Origin: Halochromatium roseum
GTDB taxonomy: Bacteria; Pseudomonadota; Gammaproteobacteria; Chromatiales; Chromatiaceae
Direction: 5' to 3'
Assembly: GCF_016653315.1 (NCBI RefSeq)
Contig: NZ_NHSH01000065.1
Location: 124,001-188,000 of the forward strand
DNA: 64,000 bases
Positions within the stretch are counted from its first letter, which is position 1; every line of letters begins with the position of its first letter. The notes under the pieces are model-generated. The model ran no database searches and had not been told where the DNA came from. It saw only the letters and a list, made by a program, of their open reading frames with translations. The translations under genes and the position numbers were made by a program. Below, piece by piece: positions 4,913-46,713 of this stretch.

Positions 4913-5243
4913 CGACGGGTCTCCGTTGCTAGCTGCCTAGGTTCTTGCAGATGCGAGTCATCCGAGCGCGGCGCATGTCTCATTCAGCCACGTCCAGCAA
5001 CGTTGCTGGTCGACGCGCATCGAACGCACACTGTTATCAGCCCATGAGTTTGCGAGTCGAACGCCGTTTTCAAGCTCCCCTCGGACCCTGAGCCGACAGA
5101 CGGGGTTCTGATCGAACGCGACGCCGCCGCTGTCGCCGAGCCAATGCCCGTGTCGCCGGGCCGATGCTCGGCTTGATCGCGCTAAAATGGCACCCATCCG
5201 CGCGCACCTGAGCGCAAACGTCGCTAATGTCCCTGCCTCCTTC
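4913..5243. other. Divergent intergenic region, ferritin / YbjT-like gene
   Basis: No gene is apparent in these 331 bases, which should hold the divergent promoters. The only structure I see is a 20-bp tandem pair (5131-5150 and 5151-5170), identical at 17 positions, beginning TGTCGCCG. No clear Fur box was found by eye. Confidence 0.5.
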
Positions 5244-36092: not shown

Positions 36093-37880
36093 CTAGCTCA
36101 GGATCTGGCCATCGTAGTCAGCGATGCCCGGGTTGCCCTTGACGTTCTTCAGCTTCGGCGTGTTGAGCTTATCGATCTTGACCGTCTTCACATCGCGCAG
36201 ATAGGTCGCGACCGTCTCCCAGATCGGCTCACCCGGCGACTGACTACCAACCGTCGCCCAACCGGCGACGACATAGGTCTTGTCGGCCTCGATCTTGGTG
36301 CCGTCATCAAGCTGCATCTCAGAGACACGCTTGCCCATCCCGGCCGCCGGATCGCAGACATAATCGAGCCCACCGACACGCACCATATCCCCGCCCTGCT
36401 GCACATACGGATCAGCATTGAACAGGTTGTCGCAGACATCCTCGAGGATCACCTTGATGTCGGCCCCGCTCATCTCGCGCCGATAGGTCTCCGGATAAGT
36501 GATGCAGGTCTGATCCATAACGTTGTCCATGGTGATCTTCTGCCCCGGCAGCACCGTGGTACCCCAACGGAAGCCGGGTGAGAGACTGATCTGGGCGTCG
36601 TTGACCTTGCGCAGCGCATCACAGATCACCTGATCGAAGGTGCCGTTGAAGTTACCGCGACGGTAGAGCACCTCTTCGGCCGTTGCCAGCTCCTCGGTCA
36701 GCTTGTCCAGGTAAGGCGCGCGCTGCTCCTCGATGTACTTGGTCATCTCCGCGTTCGGCTTGAGCAGGTTCGAGAACACGGGCAACAACCGATAACGATA
36801 GTCGCGCAGCTTACCGTCCTTGATGTCGAGGTCCATCACACCGAGGAACTTGCCGTTCGAACCAGCATTGGTGACCAGGGTCTTGCCGCTGGCGTTCTCG
36901 ACGATGCTCGGGGCTGGCATGCCGTCGTGAGTATGGCCGCCGAAGATGACATCGATGCCGGTGACCCGCGAGGCCATCTTCAGGTCGACGTCCATGCCGT
37001 TGTGTGAGAGCACCACGACCAGATCCGGCGATTCCTCGTCGCGCACCTTGTCGACGAACTCCTGCATGCGCTGATCCTGGATACCGAAGGTCCAGTCGGG
37101 GATGAAGCGCTGCGGATTGGCAATCGGCGTGTAGGGGAAGGCCTGACCGATCACTGCCACCCGTGAGCCACCGACCTCTTTGATGGTATACGGATTGAAG
37201 GCGAGGCCATCGTCTTCCTGGAAGCCGCCGAAGTCCTCGAACTGGTAGTCGAACAGCGCCTCTTCACGCACCTTGACGTTCTGCGCCACGAAGTCGCCAT
37301 TGAACGCCTCGATGTTCTTGATGACCTCGGTGTCCAGGTAGGTGAACTCCCAGTGGCCGGTCATCACGTCGACGCCGAGCCGGTTAGTCGCGCCGACCAT
37401 ATCCATGCCGCGCGTCCAGTAGGCGGTGCCCGAGCCCTGCCAGGTATCGCCACCATCCATCAGCAAGGTGTTGCCATCACCACGCTCGGCGCGGATACGA
37501 TCGACCAGGGTCTTCAGGTGCGCAAAGCCGCCGACGGTGCCGAATTTCTCAGCCGCCTCGGCGAAATCGAGATAGCTGAAGGCGTGTGCTTCGATGCTGC
37601 CTGGCGCGATGCCGAAATGCTTCAGCAGTGCCTCGCCCACGATGTGCGGCGCCTTGCCAAACGCTGGCCCGATGCCGAGGTTGACATTCGGCTCGCGGAA
37701 ATAGACCGGATTCAGCTGCGCATGGCAATCGGTCATGTGCAGCAGCGTCAGATTGCCGAACTTGGGCACCTCATAGAGGTCGCTCGGCTGCTTGGCCTCG
37801 GCGAACACCGAACGCGGCAGCATGCCGGCGGCACCGGCCAGACTCAACAGACGGACGAATTCACGGCGAGAAATAGTCAT
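36093..37880 (-). CDS. soxB: Thiosulfohydrolase SoxB
   Basis: A periplasmic dimanganese enzyme that hydrolyses sulfate from SoxYZ-bound thiosulfonate during thiosulfate oxidation. The N-terminus SRREFVRLLSLAGAAGMLPR has a Tat-like twin arginine and hydrophobic core. Metallophosphatase motifs follow: HMTDCHAQ, LLMDGGDTWQGS, GHWEF, LSHNGMDVD and FGGHTHDGM. The SoxB-specific MVRVGGLDYVC is near residue 500. At 595 residues the length is normal. It is divergent from the TtrS-like kinase gene. Confidence 0.96.
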   Translation of the reverse strand: MTISRREFVRLLSLAGAAGMLPRSVFAEAKQPSDLYEVPKFGNLTLLHMTDCHAQLNPVYFREPNVNLGIGPAFGKAPHIVGEALLKHFGIAPGSIEAHAFSYLDFAEAAEKFGTVGGFAHLKTLVDRIRAERGDGNTLLMDGGDTWQGSGTAYWTRGMDMVGATNRLGVDVMTGHWEFTYLDTEVIKNIEAFNGDFVAQNVKVREEALFDYQFEDFGGFQEDDGLAFNPYTIKEVGGSRVAVIGQAFPYTPIANPQRFIPDWTFGIQDQRMQEFVDKVRDEESPDLVVVLSHNGMDVDLKMASRVTGIDVIFGGHTHDGMPAPSIVENASGKTLVTNAGSNGKFLGVMDLDIKDGKLRDYRYRLLPVFSNLLKPNAEMTKYIEEQRAPYLDKLTEELATAEEVLYRRGNFNGTFDQVICDALRKVNDAQISLSPGFRWGTTVLPGQKITMDNVMDQTCITYPETYRREMSGADIKVILEDVCDNLFNADPYVQQGGDMVRVGGLDYVCDPAAGMGKRVSEMQLDDGTKIEADKTYVVAGWATVGSQSPGEPIWETVATYLRDVKTVKIDKLNTPKLKNVKGNPGIADYDGQILS

Positions 37881-37975
37881 TGGGGTATCATCTCCTCCTA
37901 AACATTCTGCTTATCGACTCGCCGCGATCCGCACAGGCTGGCTGCCTGCTCGGCGCGGCTAAAAGCGGTCATAGT

Positions 37976-40378
37976 ATGCACGCGGGCCACCTCGGATTGC
38001 CATTCACCGAAGCCTTGCCTCGATTAGGGACTTTCTGCCTTGATGGGCTCAGGGGCCTTGGCTCGATCGTACAGAGGGGGGCGCAGCAGCGCCGGTCGCA
38101 GCAGCGCCGAGCCCAACTCGACTCGATACTTTTTCTCATCGTCGGGCTGGTCGCCTTACCGATTGCAGCGGGCAACCGCGCCCTCGCCGACACAGCCGGG
38201 CTCGATGACCCCGGCCTACCGCGGCCGATCGAGATTGGCGTGCTCAGCCATCGCGGCGATCGCGTCACCCAGCAGCAATGGGGTCCTACCGCTGACTATC
38301 TGACCCGAGCGCTCCCGCACCACCGCTTCCGGATCTTACCGCTCGCATTCAAGGAGGTCGAAGCTGCGCTGGCCAACGGTCGCATCCAGTTCTTACTGGT
38401 CAACCCAGGCATGTACGTCGACCTGGAGGTGCGCTATCGCATCTCGCGCATTGCGACCCTGCGCAACGGCACCGGCAATCAGGCACGCAACCGCTTTGGG
38501 GGCGTGATCTTCACCCGCGCCGAGCGCGACGATATCACTCAATTATCCGACCTGCGCGGCAAACGTCTGCTTGCAGTGGACCCGAATTCATTCGGTGGCT
38601 TCCTGATGCAGCTCGATGTCTTGCGTCAGCAAGGCATCGCGGCGCCCCGGGCGCTGGCTGCACTCGAGTTCGCGGGCATCCACGATGCCGTGGTGCTTGG
38701 GGTGCGCGATGGCCAGGCAGACGCCGGCATGGTCCGCACCGACATCCTCGAGCGCATGGCGACTCAAGGCCGCATCAATCTCTCGGATTTTCGCGTGCTC
38801 GCATCGCCCGCCGCGCCTGACTTCAGGCTGCGGCTCAGCACCCCACTCTACCCCGAATGGCCCTTCAGCACCCTGCAACACACCCCAAACGCATTGGCCC
38901 AGCAGGTTGCCGTGGCGCTGATGCAGATGCCACAGGACGACCCGGCTGCGTTGGCCGGCGGCTATGCCGGCTGGACCGTGCCACTCGACTATCAGCCGGT
39001 GCATCAACTCCTGCAGGCACTGGGGCGGCCACCCTACGATCAGCCGACCGCTTTCACCCTGAACGATGCCTTGCGGCGCTACTGGCCTGCTGTGCTGCTC
39101 AGCCTCCTGGCGCTCGGGCTCTTGGCTGCCCTCAGCGGCCGATTGAAGACCCTCAATGCGCGCCTCAATCGCGCCAAGTCGCGCCTCGAGCAGCGCCAAG
39201 AACTGATCCTCAACTCGGTCGCCGAAGGCATCTACGGCGTCGATCTCTGCGGCAGAACCACCTTCGTCAACAAGGCCGTTGAGCGCCTGACCGGCTGGGA
39301 TGGGCATCAGCTCATCGGCTGCAACCAGCACCAGGTGCTTCATCATGCGCATCGCCATGAGCATCATCGGCTAGCGCACCAGCATGCGCATCGGCACAGC
39401 ACCCTGACCGCAGAGGAAGACTGCCCGGTCTACGCCACCTTCCGCGACCAGCGCCCACGCTTCGTTGAGGACGATCTGTTCCGGCGCCGAGACGGCTCCT
39501 GCTTCCCGGTCGAGTACAGCACCACCCCCATCCGCGACGAGCGCGGCAAAACCGTCGGCAGCGTGGTCGTCTTTCGCGACATCACTGAGCGACGCGAGGC
39601 CGCCGAGCGCATCCGTGGTCTGCAGCGCGAGCAAGCCCGAGCGGCGCGCCTCAGCACGCTCGGCGAGATGGCCTCGGGCATGGCCCATGAGCTCAATCAA
39701 CCGCTCACCGCAATCAGCACCAATGCTCGCGCCTGCGTGCGGTTGGTCGAGAACGGACGCGGCAACCTCGAGCGCTGCACGGAGGTCATGACCAAGATTG
39801 CCGACCAAGCCGAACGCGCGGGCGAGATCATCCGCCATATCCGACGTTTCGTGCGCAAAGAGCCCCTCGAGACAGCCTCAGTTGCCGTTGCCGACCTGTT
39901 CGAGACAGTCCTCGTGCTACTGCACCAGGACGCCGGTCAGCATGCGGTCGAGATCCAGGTCAACATCGATGCGAACGTCGGCGCAGTCAGGGTTCAGCGC
40001 ATCGAGATCGAGCAGGTCATCCTCAATTTAGCCCGTAATGCGGTCGAAGCCATGGCCGAGATCGACGGCCCCCATCGACTCTGGCTCGAGGCCAGCCGAG
40101 CCGAGCACCCCGCGAGCATCCAGATCCGCGTCAAGGATACCGGGCCAGGCATCCCGGAGCAGATCCGCGAACGCCTGTTCGAGCCCTTCGTGACGACCAA
40201 GCGCAAAGGCTTGGGGCTTGGGCTGTCGATCAGTGCCGGCATCGTCGAGAACCATGGCGGCCGACTCAGCCTCTGCCAGCAGCCGTCCGGCGGGGCCTGC
40301 TTCGCATTCAATCTTCCGCTCGCACCTGAGGTGCCGCGGCCGCCTATCCTGGAGTCCAGCCATGACCACCGATCCTAA
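37976..40378 (+). CDS. TtrS-like sensor histidine kinase with PhnD-type periplasmic domain
   Basis: A membrane sensor built like the tetrathionate sensor TtrS. After a hydrophobic segment (SILFLIVGLVALPIAAG) comes a phosphonate-binding-protein-like periplasmic domain (IEIGVLSHRGDRVTQQQWGP, then FLLVNPGMYVDLE), a membrane segment (PAVLLSLLALGLLAAL), a PAS domain (LNSVAEGIYGVDLCGRTTFV) and a kinase core with His in MASGMAHELNQPLTAI (near 567) and DTGPGIPEQ. The PAS carries an unusual His-rich stretch (HHAHRHEHHRLAHQHAHRHS, near 455-475). The start is uncertain: the frame opens at 37880, and I use the ATG at 37976. It sits between soxB and soxX. Confidence 0.85.
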   Translation: MHAGHLGLPFTEALPRLGTFCLDGLRGLGSIVQRGAQQRRSQQRRAQLDSILFLIVGLVALPIAAGNRALADTAGLDDPGLPRPIEIGVLSHRGDRVTQQQWGPTADYLTRALPHHRFRILPLAFKEVEAALANGRIQFLLVNPGMYVDLEVRYRISRIATLRNGTGNQARNRFGGVIFTRAERDDITQLSDLRGKRLLAVDPNSFGGFLMQLDVLRQQGIAAPRALAALEFAGIHDAVVLGVRDGQADAGMVRTDILERMATQGRINLSDFRVLASPAAPDFRLRLSTPLYPEWPFSTLQHTPNALAQQVAVALMQMPQDDPAALAGGYAGWTVPLDYQPVHQLLQALGRPPYDQPTAFTLNDALRRYWPAVLLSLLALGLLAALSGRLKTLNARLNRAKSRLEQRQELILNSVAEGIYGVDLCGRTTFVNKAVERLTGWDGHQLIGCNQHQVLHHAHRHEHHRLAHQHAHRHSTLTAEEDCPVYATFRDQRPRFVEDDLFRRRDGSCFPVEYSTTPIRDERGKTVGSVVVFRDITERREAAERIRGLQREQARAARLSTLGEMASGMAHELNQPLTAISTNARACVRLVENGRGNLERCTEVMTKIADQAERAGEIIRHIRRFVRKEPLETASVAVADLFETVLVLLHQDAGQHAVEIQVNIDANVGAVRVQRIEIEQVILNLARNAVEAMAEIDGPHRLWLEASRAEHPASIQIRVKDTGPGIPEQIRERLFEPFVTTKRKGLGLGLSISAGIVENHGGRLSLCQQPSGGACFAFNLPLAPEVPRPPILESSHDHRS

Positions 40379-40988
40379 CGTCTTTATCGTTGACGATGAC
40401 GATGAAGTGCGCGCCGCCATCGCACTCCTGATGGAGTCTGTCGGCCTCGATGTGCGCAGCTATGACTCAGCCCAGGCCTTTCTCGAGGACTTCGATCCAC
40501 AACGCCCAGGCTGCCTGGTGCTCGATGTGCGCATGCGCGGCATGAGCGGGCTTGAGCTGCAGAGCCACCTCGCTCAGCAGCCGCTTTACCCACCCATCGT
40601 CATCATCACCGGCCATGGCGATGTGCCGATGGCGGTGCGCGCGGTGCAGGCCGGCGCGATCGATTTTCTCGAGAAACCGTTCAACGATCAGGCCCTGCTT
40701 GACGCCGTCCACCAGGCGTTGAGCGTTGATGAGCATCGCCGTGGCCATGCGCTGCAACGCGCCGAGATCAATCGACGGCTGGACCGCCTGACCCCGCGCG
40801 AGCGCGAGATCCTCGATCAAATCATTGCCGGTAAGCGCAACAAGGTGATCGCCTACGATCTCGGCATCAGTCAATCGACGGTCGAAGCGCACCGGGCCAA
40901 GGTCATGGACAAACTCGGTGCAAGCTCGCTCTCCGAGCTGATGCGACTGATGTTCAAGCACACGAAGAGCGACCAGGAAAATGTATGA
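40362..40988 (+). CDS. FixJ/TtrR-type response regulator
   Basis: A 208-residue regulator: receiver domain with VFIVDDDDEVRAAI, phosphorylation site VLDVRMRGMSGLEL and FLEKPFNDQALLDAV, then a LuxR-type helix-turn-helix with LTPREREILDQIIAGKRNKV and STVEAHRAKVMDKL. It overlaps the kinase gene by 17 bp and is its evident partner. The ATG at 40362 is the family-consistent start. It converges on soxX. Confidence 0.9.
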   Translation: MTTDPNVFIVDDDDEVRAAIALLMESVGLDVRSYDSAQAFLEDFDPQRPGCLVLDVRMRGMSGLELQSHLAQQPLYPPIVIITGHGDVPMAVRAVQAGAIDFLEKPFNDQALLDAVHQALSVDEHRRGHALQRAEINRRLDRLTPREREILDQIIAGKRNKVIAYDLGISQSTVEAHRAKVMDKLGASSLSELMRLMFKHTKSDQENV

Positions 40989-41155: not shown

Positions 41156-41833
41156 TTATTGGTTGACCGGAGAATCCGGATCGAGCAGATAGGCCATGAT
41201 GTCGGCGATCGACTGTTGGTCTAGGTAATTCGTGACGCCGAAACGGGGCATATTGGTGCAGGGGAAGGCGGCATGCGAGTTATAGATGACGTCGTAGGTG
41301 TACTTGACGATCGCATCGCTGGTGCCGCGAATCCGACCAAACCCGACGAGGCTTGGACCAATGGTCCCACCGGTGCGGTCGGTTCCGATCTGATGGCAGT
41401 TGTAGCAATTGCCACCGACATCATTGTTCTCATGATCATCCATGCGATGTCCGACCCGGAAGCCGTAGCCGGACCAGGCGAGATCACGGCCCCGCTTCCA
41501 ATCACCTAGCTTGATACCGTCTTCTGGGTAGGTGATGGTCTCGCGTGCCTGCTGACTGACCTTAAGCAAGGTCTCCATGTCCGGCCGGGTTCCATCGATG
41601 CTTGAGCAGGTCTTCTGCAGTTCATCTTGCACCATGCGTTGACGCGCTGTACCGCCTTCCTGGACCTCTTGATCGAGCTTGAAACCGCCGGCCTCGAAAA
41701 TCAGGTATTCGGCGAGTTCCTCGGGCGTCATCTTGGTGTAATCAACCTCCTCAGCGACGACCGCAGCGAAGGGCATGGAGAGCGCGACAAGGCCGACGAC
41801 CATGCGCCCTGAAATCATCTTTTTAGACATCAT
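41156..41833 (-). CDS. soxX: Sulfur-oxidation cytochrome c subunit SoxX
   Basis: The monohaem subunit of SoxAX, which forms the bond between thiosulfate and SoxY. A signal peptide (MVVGLVALSMPFAAVVAEE) precedes the mature protein. The haem site is GGNCYNCHQIGTDRTGG near residue 144, with GTIGPSLVGFGRIRG after it and a candidate Met ligand in CTNMPRFG near 195. SoxX here is on the long side (225 residues). It lies 25 bp downstream of soxA in the same operon; a tandem start (ATGATG) is present. Confidence 0.93.
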   Translation of the reverse strand: MMSKKMISGRMVVGLVALSMPFAAVVAEEVDYTKMTPEELAEYLIFEAGGFKLDQEVQEGGTARQRMVQDELQKTCSSIDGTRPDMETLLKVSQQARETITYPEDGIKLGDWKRGRDLAWSGYGFRVGHRMDDHENNDVGGNCYNCHQIGTDRTGGTIGPSLVGFGRIRGTSDAIVKYTYDVIYNSHAAFPCTNMPRFGVTNYLDQQSIADIMAYLLDPDSPVNQ

Positions 41834-41858: not shown

Positions 41859-43058
41859 TCAACGCTTCATATCTGACAGGATCGCTGGCTGACCGCGGGC
41901 GGCGTCGGTCCAGTAGCTCAGCATGGCGATGCTCGCGTCAGAGCCGGCAACCGGGCTCGCTTGACGCATCTGCCAGTAGCAACCGCGTAGGCGATGTTGG
42001 CTGCTGCGAACATGGTCGTGCCCCACGCGGAACGCCGGCCAAGAGATCGCCTTGGTCCACTCCTCGGGAATGTTCTTATTCGGTAACACGGATGCGCGAA
42101 TGCGCTTGCCGGACTCGGCATGGCAGGTGCTGCAGGCAAAGTCAGCCTTGCCGGCACGGCGGTAGAACATGACCTCGCCCGCATCGCGCAGGGCCTTCTC
42201 TAGCGGATGATCCATCGGTGGATTCCAGGCAAAGCCGCTCGACAAGCTGGCGATATAGGTCTGCAGCTTCATGTGATCGGTATTACTGCCATGACGCTTT
42301 GTTATCGCCGGATCATCCGGAGCAAAGCCTTGCAGCGTGATCATGCAATGCACCAAGCGCGTCTCGAGATCCATCACCTTGCCGGTGTCTTCAAAATAAC
42401 GCGGCAACTCGACATAGGCCCCTTCCAGCACTCCCGGACCCTTGCCGAAATCGCATTCTTCAAGCGAGACATTGTTCGGTCCACGAGGCTCTTTGAACAG
42501 ATCCTCGCCATCCGCCGCTGTCCACAGCGCGGGGCTGTCAGGCATCATCATCAGGTTCTGGTCGCTCTGCGACAGATATTCCGACTGGGTCCGAGCGATC
42601 AGTCCCTCAAGCACGTCTAGCGGCTCTTGGTAGTTGCCCACCGCAGCCTTCGCGGCATCTCCGACGGCTTTGCGCTCCTCTTGCTGGGCAAGCAACTCCA
42701 TCGCCATGGCATCCTGGCGTCGCGCCCATACCGCATACTGGAGTGCCCGGGTGTACTGCCGCGAGGGCAACACCGACTCGGCCTGCTCGATCATCTCATT
42801 GGTTGGACTGTCCGTGACGCCGGCGGCAATGGCTTCTTCACGCGTCTGCTTGGCCTCGGCGATCGCGGTTTCAGCCTCTTCACGTGTCGTCGCCCAGACC
42901 GTCAGTGGGATCAAAGCCACGAGCAGTAGGGCCAACGAAACCCGCCCGAGACGCCGTGCGCGCCCGCCCGGCAGGCGCGGCTGTTGATGTTGATTCGCAG
43001 CGTGACCGGACACTTGATGGAGCGACCGGAGCGGTATTGGCAGTAACTTTCGTAACAT
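41859..43058 (-). CDS. soxA: SoxA cytochrome with N-terminal SoxK-like domain
   Basis: The SoxA part (about residues 165-399) shows NLMMMPDSPALW, one haem site ACSTCHAESGKRIRAS (near 308) and the cysteine ligand region RLRGCYWQMRQ (near 358); it is of the monohaem type. Unusually, the first part after the signal peptide (RVSLALLLVALIPLTVWA) is a helical region at about 58-125, AETAIAEAKQTREEAIAAG and YTRALQYAVWARRQDAMAME, that resembles the separate SoxAX-binding protein SoxK. At 399 residues it is over 100 longer than ordinary SoxA. No separate soxK is seen nearby. Confidence 0.88.
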   Translation of the reverse strand: MLRKLLPIPLRSLHQVSGHAANQHQQPRLPGGRARRLGRVSLALLLVALIPLTVWATTREEAETAIAEAKQTREEAIAAGVTDSPTNEMIEQAESVLPSRQYTRALQYAVWARRQDAMAMELLAQQEERKAVGDAAKAAVGNYQEPLDVLEGLIARTQSEYLSQSDQNLMMMPDSPALWTAADGEDLFKEPRGPNNVSLEECDFGKGPGVLEGAYVELPRYFEDTGKVMDLETRLVHCMITLQGFAPDDPAITKRHGSNTDHMKLQTYIASLSSGFAWNPPMDHPLEKALRDAGEVMFYRRAGKADFACSTCHAESGKRIRASVLPNKNIPEEWTKAISWPAFRVGHDHVRSSQHRLRGCYWQMRQASPVAGSDASIAMLSYWTDAARGQPAILSDMKR

Positions 43059-43371: not shown

Positions 43372-44037
43372 TTGATCATCCGTCCCACCTACGCCCTCGC
43401 CTCACTGCTGCTCATCGGCTCGGTCGCCCTGGCCGATGACAACAAGATCACGCCAACGCTCAAGAGCGTCGATGTCAGTCACCAGAGCACGACCCTGACG
43501 GTCACCCGCGGCGCGGATCGCCACGCCACCCTCCCGGAGATGTTCCAAAAGACTGAGCGTGGCTGTCCGCCCTTCTGTGTGCAGCCGATGCAAGCGCTCC
43601 CCGGCGTCGAGACCATCGGTGAACTTGAGGTCCTGGACTACCTAAGCCGGATACACCAGGGCGACGACTCGATTCTCGTCGTCGACTCGCGCACGCCAGA
43701 CTGGGTGATGCGCGGCACCATTCCAGGTGCGATCAATATCCCTTGGAACAGACTCAACACCGATCCGAGTGGTAGCCTGCAACAGGCCGGCGAGGCCGAG
43801 GACCTCGGGCAGATCCTGACCGAGCAATTCGGTGCCAGCCAAGACCCCAGCAGCGGCCAGTGGCGTTTCGACGATGCCAAGACCCTAGTCCTGTTCTGCA
43901 ACGGCATCTGGTGCGCGCAGTCGACAGCTAACCTCAAGACCTTGGCGGGACTCGGCTACCCGGTCGACAAGCTCAAATGGTACCGAGGCGGGATGCAGGA
44001 CTGGCTCAGTGTTGGGCTGACCGCCGTCAAGCCCTAG
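43372..44037 (+). CDS. Periplasmic rhodanese, SoxL-like
   Basis: A 221-residue exported rhodanese: signal peptide (ALASLLLIGSVALA), an N-terminal region with a cysteine pair (GCPPFCVQPM), then a single rhodanese domain with VVDSRTPDWVMRGTIPGAIN and the active-site loop LFCNGIWCAQS. Purple sulfur bacteria carry a rhodanese, SoxL, in the soxXAKL cluster, and this is the likely counterpart. The start is TTG at 43372, supported by AAGGAG 8 bp before it. It is divergent from soxA. Confidence 0.82.
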   Translation: MIIRPTYALASLLLIGSVALADDNKITPTLKSVDVSHQSTTLTVTRGADRHATLPEMFQKTERGCPPFCVQPMQALPGVETIGELEVLDYLSRIHQGDDSILVVDSRTPDWVMRGTIPGAINIPWNRLNTDPSGSLQQAGEAEDLGQILTEQFGASQDPSSGQWRFDDAKTLVLFCNGIWCAQSTANLKTLAGLGYPVDKLKWYRGGMQDWLSVGLTAVKP

Positions 44038-44146: not shown

Positions 44147-44328
44147 CATCCCCCAGCCCCCAAAGCGTTGCTAGGCAGGTCGCTAGGCAGCATGCACTCC
44201 GACCGCGGCTGGTGGTCGCGAGACAGAAACGCCTCGGGGCCAAAGTCGGCACATTGATGCACCGCACAAAACGCGCGTAACTGATCGTTTATAGTGTGTC
44301 GTTTTTCGATCCAGAGGCACCGAGAGCA

Positions 44329-46713
44329 ATGACCGATTATGTGCGTTGGCTGAGCGACTTAGGGATGGGGGACGTGGGCGTCGTCGGCGGCAAGAACGCC
44401 TCGCTTGGCGAGATGATCCAACATCTGACCCAGCTTGGGGTGCTGGTCCCCGGTGGCTTCGCGACCACCGCGCAGGCCTACCGCGACTTCTTGGCCGTTG
44501 ATGGCCTGGCCGAGCGCATCGCCGCTGAGCTGGACGCACTTGACGTCGATGACATCGCCGCGCTCAGCGCCGCCGGCCCGCGCATCCGCGGCTGGATCAT
44601 CGAGCAGCCGTTCCAGCCCGAACTGGAACAGGCCATCGAACAGGCCTACGCCGCCCTCGCCGAGAACATCGAGAACGCTGCCGATGCGACCTGGGCGGTG
44701 CGCTCCTCCGCCACCGCCGAGGATCTGCCCGATGCCTCGTTCGCCGGTCAACAAGAGACCTTCCTGAATATCCACGGCCTGGACAACGTCAAGCGCGCCA
44801 TCAAGGAGGTCTTCGCCTCGCTCTATAATGACCGCGCCATCTCCTATCGCGTGCACAAGGGCTTTACCCACGCCGATGTCGCGCTCTCCGCTGGCATCCA
44901 GCGCATGGTGCGCAGCGACCTCGCCGCCAGCGGTGTGATGTTCACCCTCGACACCGAATCCGGCTTCAACGATGCCGTCTTCATCACCGCCAGCGTCGGC
45001 CTCGGCGAGATGGTGGTCCAAGGCGCGGTCAACCCCGACGAATTCTACGTGCACAAGCCGACGCTCGCGGCCGGGCGCCCCGCCATCCTGCGTCGCACCC
45101 TTGGCGACAAGGCCATGCGCATGGTCTTTGCCGAACCCGGCAGCCGCGAGCCGGTGCGCACCGAACAAACACCGATGGCCGAGCGCCAGCAGTTCTCCAT
45201 CAGCGATGCCGAGATCGAGGCGCTGGCCAAGCAGGCGGTGCTGATCGAACAGCACTACCAGCGGCCGATGGATATCGAATGGGCCAAGGACGGACTCGAC
45301 GGCAAGCTCTACATCGTCCAGGCGCGCCCGGAGACGGTCCAGAGCCGCAGTGGTCAGGTGGTCGAGCGCTATCGCCTGAAAGAGACCGGCGGCGAGATCC
45401 TCGCCACCGGGCGCAGCATCGGCGGGCGCATCGGCGCCGGCAAGGCACGGGTGGTCGAGTCGATCCGCGACATGGAGCATGTCCAGGCCGGCGACGTGCT
45501 GGTCACCGACATGACCGACCCCGACTGGGAGCCGGTGATGAAACGTGCCGCGGCCATTGTCACCAACCGTGGTGGTAGGACATGTCACGCCGCTATTATT
45601 GCCCGTGAATTAGGCGTGCCAGCGGTGGTCGGCTGCAACGATGCGACCGATAAGATCGCCGATGGCCAAGCCGTCACGGTCTCTTGCGCCGAGGGCGATA
45701 CCGGTTACATCTATGACGGCGAGCTTGCCTTCGAGCACAAGGTCGTCGAGCTGGAGAAGATGCCCGAGGTGCCGGTCAAGGTCATGATGAACGTCGGCAA
45801 CCCGGAGCGCGCCTTCGGCTTCGCCTCGATCCCAAATGCCGGCGTGGGTCTCGCCAGGCTCGAGTTCATCATCAACAACAGCATCGGCATCCATCCCAAG
45901 GCGCTGCTGGAATTCGACCAGCTGCCCGATGACCTCAAGGCCGAGATCAGCCCGCGTATCGCCGCCTATCCGAGCCCGCGCGAATTCTTCGTCATGCGCC
46001 TAGCCGAAGGCATTGCCACGCTGGCGGCGACCTTTGCACCGAATCCGGTCATCATCCGGATGTCTGACTTCAAGTCGAATGAGTATGCGAACCTGATCGC
46101 CGGCCCGCGCTACGAGCCCGAGGAAGAAAACCCGATGATCGGCTTCCGCGGCGCCGGGCGTTATGTCTCCGACAGCTTCAAGGCCTGCTTCGAGATGGAA
46201 TGCGAGGCGTTGAAGTACGTCCGCAACGAGATGGGCCTGAGCAATCTACAGATCATGATCCCCTTCGTGCGCACGCTGAATCAGGCCAAGGCGGTCACCG
46301 AGGCGCTGGCTGAGCAGGGTCTCAAGCGCGGTGAGAATGGCCTCAAGCTGATCATGATGTGCGAGATCCCCTCCAACGCGGTGCTCGCCGAGCAGTTCCT
46401 CGAATACTTCGACGGCTTCTCGATCGGCTCCAACGACATGACCCAGCTCACCCTTGGCATCGACCGCGACTCAAGCCTGGTCGCCGCCGACTTCGACGAG
46501 CGCGATCCGGCGGTCAAGGCGATGCTCTCAATGGCCATTCAAGCCTGTCGCAAGCAGGGCAAGTACGTTGGCATCTGTGGTCAGGGGCCGTCCGACCATG
46601 CTGACTTTGCTGATTGGCTGGTCAAGGAAGGTATTGAGAGCGTGTCGCTGAACCCGGATACCGTGATCGACACCTGGCTGTATCTGGCTGAGCACATGGA
46701 GAAGGAAGGCTGA
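44329..46713 (+). CDS. ppsA: Phosphoenolpyruvate synthase
   Basis: Makes phosphoenolpyruvate from pyruvate and ATP for gluconeogenesis. The ATP-grasp N-domain begins [12 protein letters not shown] and includes [20 protein letters not shown]; the phosphohistidine domain has [21 protein letters not shown] with His near residue 420; the C-terminal domain ends with [15 protein letters not shown] and GICGQGPSD. The ATG at 44329 gives the usual start ([20 protein letters not shown]). A TATAGT hexamer near 44290 may be its -10 element. The stop lies in the first unit of a heptamer repeat. Confidence 0.95.

Follow-up and report, generated by a model that had tools for sequence, protein, structure and literature searches.

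Architecture of the soxKA gene

What has been joined to SoxA in the sox locus of Halochromatium roseum, where did the added part come from, and does the fusion preserve a native partnership? The window examined here, which is the whole 64,000-nucleotide stretch, derives from a genome (G000) of 5,173,123 bases in 88 contigs with a completeness of 100. Its sox locus contains an intact gene, here called soxKA, whose product combines a SoxA with a preceding segment related to SoxK, a little-known subunit of thiosulfate-oxidizing cytochromes (Table 1). The SoxA assignment is supported by the NCBIfam model TIGR04484, which matches residues 176–398 with 191 bits and passes its cut-off of 110, and by retention of both SoxA marks, the CxxCH haem site (C309–H313) and the active-site cysteine (C360). 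The best PDB match of SoxKA is 3oa8 (186.5 bits, from query residue 174 onward), which we take to be SoxA of Starkeya novella.

The N-terminal portion has a mosaic appearance. By eye, its MLRK-type start is like the leaders of some unfused type II SoxA proteins, and alignments relate residues 38–56 to the leader of two-domain SoxK. The approximately 37 residues preceding the hydrophobic leader core form an unusually long and poorly conserved stretch, with a mean identity of 0.54 over residues 1–37. Past the leader, AlphaFold2 modeled residues 57–116 of the fused protein with pLDDT values of 84–96 and the next ten residues at 76. The domain model consists of three helices (model residues 3–22, 30–39, and 46–83). 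Domain packing is not readable from the full-length model because its SoxA half is of low confidence (overall mean pLDDT, 51.8). The two-domain SoxK of a same-genus genome, G001, was predicted as two consecutive three-helix units (mean pLDDT, 84.6).

Table 1. Features of the soxKA locus (window coordinates) and of related SoxK loci (locus coordinates)
Feature	Position	Strand	Evidence or remark
soxB	36093..37880	-	TIGR04486, 882 bits
Sensor histidine kinase with PhnD-like binding domain	37880..40378	+	True start probably downstream of ORF start
LuxR-type response regulator	40218..40988	+	True start probably downstream of ORF start
soxX, type II	41156..41833	-	TIGR04485, 79.6 bits; directly downstream of soxKA, 25-nt gap
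soxKA fusion gene	41859..43058	-	399 aa, ATG start; intact ORF
Residues 1–37, MLRK-type start, then spacer of low conservation	42948..43058	-
Residues 38–56, hydrophobic leader ending ..VWA|TT	42891..42947	-	Alignments; cleavage site by eye
Residues 57–124, SAXB/SoxK K1-type domain, predicted helical	42687..42890	-	Profiles, tree, model
Residues 125–142, linker	42633..42686	-
Residues 143–399, mature type II SoxA	41862..42632	-
Residues 309–313, sole haem-binding CSTCH	42120..42134	-
Cys360	41979..41981	-	Aligned with 3oa8 cysteine; Met in 3ocd (titled C236M mutant)
soxL-type rhodanese	43372..44037	+	PF00581; divergent from soxKA; name from position and homology
ppsA	44296..46713	+	Syntenic flank common to type III locus of sister genomes
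SoxK–SoxL fusion	L010:832-1812	-
SoxK–SoxL fusion	L127:1707-2660	+
SoxK–SoxL fusion	L128:143-1174	-
SoxK–SoxL fusion	L129:1324-2499	+
SoxK–SoxL fusion	L130:1030-2064	-
Tandem SoxK	L071:4835-5392		Besides L072 and L074, 16 further distinct loci
Tandem SoxK	L072:9346-9903
Tandem SoxK	L074:9981-10538

Homology of the N-terminal extension

The NCBIfam model for the SoxAX-binding protein family (SAXB, NF052674) matched residues 57–128 at profile positions 33–104 of 111, with 22.4 bits (E = 1.2e-4) against a curated cut-off of 95 bits. Among 194 genomes of the family, the cut-off is passed in 6, and matches at E ≤ 1e-8 occur in 140. Given that the score falls below the cut-off and that the model is unspecific, scoring a LysM lipoprotein (L026) at 106 bits, an NF052674 match taken by itself is suggestive. 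We therefore dropped it as proof of SoxK homology and used our own profiles, shuffles, and a domain tree. SAXB-like domains were seen in two LysM lipoproteins, L026:1006-1839(-) and L029:1465-2229(+); since the former exceeds the cut-off, NF052674 possibly misnames such proteins.

Several soxK genes of the same genus (in G001, G002, G005, and G007) encode proteins of ~185 aa composed of two SAXB domains, K1 and K2, and lie between type III soxA and soxL; these genes are written soxKK below. Profiles of K1 domains, of K2 and single-domain SoxK, and of all SoxK were built without any fused sequence. The extension scored 93.8 bits against the K1 profile (shuffle maximum 12.3; 5000 shuffles), 28.7 bits against the K2/single-domain profile (13.4; 4999 shuffles), and 72.3 bits against the all-SoxK profile (15.7; 4999–5000 shuffles). 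From residue 6 or 17 to residues 126–136, SoxKA is 53–54% identical (95–107 bits) to the first half of the ~185-aa products; in three of the four genomes, the alignment continues upstream of the soxK start, across one or two stop codons. At the DNA level, a 202-nt stretch that starts in the leader cleavage region and runs into the end of K1 is 74–75% identical to soxKK of G001 and G005.

A tree of 65 domains over ~75 columns, from which 3 of 68 distant rows had been removed beforehand, placed the five fused domains found in this study in one clade (support 100) nested in the K1 group of the genus (99). K1 and fused domains were split from K2 and single domains with a support of 100 in the Newick file; midpoint re-rooting shifts the labels, such that the drawn value for this split reads 50. 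The GEWRDT (WRDT) motif follows the same division, being found in K2 and most single-domain SoxK proteins and absent from tandem K1 and all five fused domains. Taken together, these relationships indicate that the fused domain stems from K1 of a two-domain SoxK of the same genus. Because K1 and the fused domains lack GEWRDT, the part of SoxK that binds SoxAX may lie outside K1. Tandem SoxK proteins combining a divergent K1 without WRDT and a canonical K2 occur in many Chromatiaceae-type genomes.

Structural comparison was less informative. The nearest solved fold to the fused domain is chain C of the DUF4398 protein 4fm3 (TM 0.70 on the target, rmsd 1.7 Å), at a nonsignificant E of 1.8. A Foldseek search with the model of two-domain SoxK returned nothing at E ≤ 0.001, and the SoxK sequence profile found no solved structure below E 0.1. 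This fold resemblance and the weak SAXB score are what one might expect if the extension were a DUF4398-like helical domain of a generic kind and had no relation to SoxK, a reading rendered highly improbable by the identity to proteins of soxXA–soxK–soxL clusters and refuted by nesting in the K1 branch.

These results bear out the initial annotation of the gene as a natural SoxK–SoxA fusion, with the SoxK-like stretch accurately delimited at residues 58–125 (here 57–124). It had also seen no separate soxK nearby; across the 5.17-Mb genome, the only SAXB match is the fused domain, at E ≤ 10 as at E ≤ 1. The extension is thus homologous to SoxK in a genome without a separate soxK, and two other genomes with the fusion (G002 and G209) retain a separate soxK, to which the extension is homologous. 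The profile comparison it had proposed gave a clear match with our K1 profile but a sub-cut-off score with NF052674.

Type of the fused SoxA

The SoxA core bears the marks of a type II enzyme, namely, a single CxxCH, S. novella SoxA as its closest match, and an adjacent SoxX with a long N-terminus, which is a mark of type II SoxAX. Assignment to type III failed on two counts: a type III SoxA query scored 27 bits versus 536 for the protein's own core, and no separate SAXB accompanies it. The type labels follow PMC4003848, in which the SoxA of types 2 and 3 alike is monohaem and SoxK is required in type 3; for type II, no need for SoxK is described. Type III systems of T. cyclicum and T. crunogena have been reported without SoxK (PMC4891895).

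Unfused type II SoxA proteins of the family sample are 65–77% identical to SoxKA, and those included in the alignment retain an ordinary leader. The unfused proteins align only from residues 134–144 onward (a fragment in G145, from 103), placing the K1 block between leader and mature SoxA. Unfused type II genomes number 25 in the 194-genome family sample. SAXB matches at E ≤ 1e-8 were found in 12 of these and in none of the other 13. Because the fused domains themselves fall short of this threshold, a divergent K1-like domain is possible in all 13 save G004 and G027, which gave no SAXB match even at E ≤ 1. On these counts, the SAXB domain is dispensable to the type II class. The same-genus G004 also gave no SoxL match at E ≤ 1e-25.

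Judged from sequence, a type II enzyme therefore carries a domain whose source is an accessory protein of type III systems. This changes the meaning of the fusion. The initial annotation envisaged SoxK fixed in one-to-one contact with its own SoxA; because the SoxA is of type II and often occurs without SAXB, the fusion is not a native SoxK–SoxA pair locked together. Naming the added part SoxK was right as to homology but too broad, as it is K1 of a two-domain SoxK alone, without GEWRDT. As backing for a role of SoxK as a SoxAX partner, the fusion is suggestive.

Distribution and selection

Among 210 genomes of the order searched, five carry the fusion, four of this genus (G000, G002, G003, and G006) and G209. 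The four fusions beyond G000 have the same architecture, 78–89% identity, and no internal stops. An assembly or gene-calling artefact is practically negligible as an explanation, given that these further genomes, including Halochromatium salexigens DSM 4395 and Lamprobacter modestohalophilus DSM 25653, are alike. The fused SoxA cores form one group of five, split from the other 25 of 30 sequences with a support of 100 in the Newick file; after midpoint re-rooting, the label drawn for this clade reads 47. Their closest unfused type II SoxA differs by criterion: G052 by tree position and G118, G085, and G207 by identity. Across all loci in the set, the SAXB profile falls on a SoxA ORF in the five fused genomes only. 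In a sample of 398 genomes from across the phylum, 13 have a match to SAXB, counted irrespective of SoxA, and a plasmid search returned no match covering >80% of the query.

The fusion cassette of G209 (L131:4959-6158(-)) sits in another genus, in a genome that also has its own type III soxXA–soxKK–soxL. Within 11 kb around this hybrid, there was no match to soxB, soxL, or ppsA. The cassette was probably acquired by horizontal transfer.

Simple pairwise dN/dS values (10 pairs) were 0.055–0.332 for the SAXB part and 0.054–0.154 for the SoxA core, compared with 0.326–0.969 for residues 1–37. The SoxK-type leader gave 0.105–0.735, and two pairs were saturated for the short linker. Because low dN/dS looks like purifying selection, the fused SAXB domain is probably functional. 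This bears on the idea that the domain is a relic without a specific function, brought in as leader sequence by the splicing of soxA to the start of soxK. Loss of the canonical SoxK motif from the domain and the existence of type II SoxA without it fit a relic; its low dN/dS relative to the residue 1–37 spacer and its intact state in all five fused genomes make one distinctly unlikely.

Genomic context and origin of the fusion

The neighbors of soxKA place the fusion in a recognizable sox locus. In G000, the adjacent soxX is the only SoxX match at E ≤ 1e-5, and in relatives, homologues of the rhodanese immediately follow soxK. Between soxB and soxX, the histidine kinase and response regulator, both on the forward strand, represent a candidate sensor of sulfur compounds; the pair (37880-40988) is presumably TtrS/TetS-like. 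In the unfused G007, gene order is soxB, kinase and regulator, type III soxX and soxA, soxKK, soxL, and ppsA. In G000, G002, and G006, soxB, kinase and regulator are followed by type II soxX and soxKA on the opposite strand, then soxL and ppsA; G003 has this order without kinase and regulator. Given these shared flanks, the hybrid cassette stands, inverted, in the place of the type III genes. Because of this inversion relative to soxKK, a simple in-frame deletion does not account for the rearrangement. G000, G003, and G006 each have one SoxA over the family cut-off (in G000, a second match of 38 bits falls short of it) and one SoxX over the cut-off (G006 with a further 36-bit match), and G002 retains type III soxXA–soxKK–soxL elsewhere in its genome.

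The start of the gene offers a clue to the join. By eye, a GAGGTTTC-ATG start region is present in all five fused genes. It also occurs in three of the ten unfused type II soxA genes compared (G052, at an internal ATG, G001, and G005; absent in the other seven) and in none of three soxKK genes. The first codons of the G052 gene also look like the start of the fused gene. Because this region is common to fused and some unfused soxA genes and not to soxKK, the SoxK leader and K1 appear to have been inserted into a soxA leader. The name soxKAXB in PMC8269255 prompted consideration of a soxK–soxA–soxX order as the fusion source. The loci read do not bear this out, as their tandem soxK comes after the soxA of type III.

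A swap of a type II cassette with capture of K1, which now acts as a cis scaffold of SoxAX and/or positions its partners, is the account we lean toward, by a modest degree. A type II soxA–soxX cassette would have replaced the resident type III soxX–soxA–soxKK in the sox locus, in the course of which the resident SoxK leader and K1 would have come to lie within the incoming soxA leader. The product would be a single exported protein that comprises a cleaved signal, helical K1, and, after a short linker, a type II SoxA with one haem. The data show homology, K1 origin, SoxA type, locus position, the single fused clade, signs of purifying selection, and the kept haem and cysteine motifs, from which the sequence of events, export and processing, contact with SoxX, and any influence on activity are inferred. 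Counting against this account, G002 and G209 also have intact type III soxXA–soxKK. The case points to in-place exchange of one SoxAX type for another, in which a domain of an accessory protein was captured.

Candidate roles of the fused domain

SoxKA and the adjacent SoxX would load thiosulfate onto SoxYZ, with K1 in cis providing a built-in scaffold that stabilizes SoxAX and/or positions it relative to SoxYZ and SoxL. SoxX and SoxA are described as being held together by SoxK (PMC3368242), which acts in trans in type III systems; by analogy, K1 most likely serves as a scaffold in cis. Counting against this role are the absence of GEWRDT from K1, the occurrence of type II SoxA elsewhere without SAXB, and the type III systems reported without SoxK.

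The downstream pathway is relevant to the choice of partner. SoxY was found in all nine genomes checked and SoxC over its cut-off in none; G000 has one 200-bit SoxC match (cut-off, 420), and this profile also gives sub-cut-off matches in 6 of 14 controls. The SoxL of A. vinosum is presented in the same paper as a sulfur transferase probably replacing SoxCD (PMC3368242). The presence of SoxY with SoxC below cut-off is consistent with a pathway truncated as in A. vinosum.

As a tentative alternative to the scaffold of SoxAX, K1 might dock SoxL or SoxYZ, with the fusion keeping that docking and the covalent bond replacing the SoxAX-binding K2. In line with this, the half that was kept is K1 rather than K2, the half that resembles single-domain SoxK; SoxL adjoins the hybrid in each of the four fusion genomes of this genus; five other genomes (G018, G083, G092, G123, and G157) have SoxK itself joined to SoxL; and of 19 distinct tandem-soxK loci, 18 have SoxL immediately downstream, the 19th (L077) ending 94 bases past soxK. 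However, the SoxK–SoxL fusions bear a canonical WRDT-type domain instead of K1, and no SoxL was found in the 11 kb around the G209 hybrid. SoxL adjacency does not track K1, because SoxL also adjoins single-domain SoxK (e.g., in G010 and G022). On the same ground, co-occurrence does not support K1 as a SoxL-specific module. A broader scheme would treat SoxK as a two-part adaptor, with K1 serving SoxL or SoxYZ and K2 serving SoxAX; takeover by a foreign type II SoxAX would then have captured K1 and linked a SoxK-independent enzyme to the resident SoxL-dependent sulfur transfer. We regard this scheme as rather doubtful.

The natural fusion, its unfused relatives, and the SoxK–SoxL fusions provide a ready comparison in which the domain can be removed from one polypeptide and K1 set against K2 without reconstituting a trimer. 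In this small group of salt-loving purple sulfur bacteria, the fusion could thus help test SoxK function.

Relation to known Sox proteins and fusions

SoxK/SAXB of A. vinosum (Alvin_2170; PMC3368242 and PMC10892978) is likewise a helical homologue in the sox neighborhood, and C. tepidum SAXB is another SoxAX-binding protein of this kind. Unlike known SoxK, a separate small periplasmic protein, the fused domain is K1 alone, covalently attached to a 399-aa SoxA and lacking GEWRDT. The type II SoxAX of S. novella (3oa8) resembles the SoxKA core, including the active-site cysteine; residues 57–124 fall outside the PDB match.

Natural fusions of Sox proteins have precedent. In the Halorhodospiraceae SoxXA fusion (PMC8877833), also a natural fusion of Sox cytochrome subunits, SoxX occupies the SoxA N-terminus, where SoxKA has SoxK; a SoxYZ fusion is also known (PMC11237559). 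No SoxK–SoxA fusion appeared among the literature matches listed, and an earlier mention in Ogawa 2008 or Kappler and Maher 2013 is possible.

The SoxK–SoxL fusions, from the same family, again join SoxK covalently to another Sox protein; no description of them was met in the portions of the literature consulted. They differ from SoxKA in placing a canonical SoxK at the N-terminus of the rhodanese SoxL within type III clusters. Their ORFs span 317–391 aa, in the gene order soxX–soxA–[soxKL] in five genomes of the family, an arrangement consistent with SoxA, SoxK, and SoxL acting in contact.
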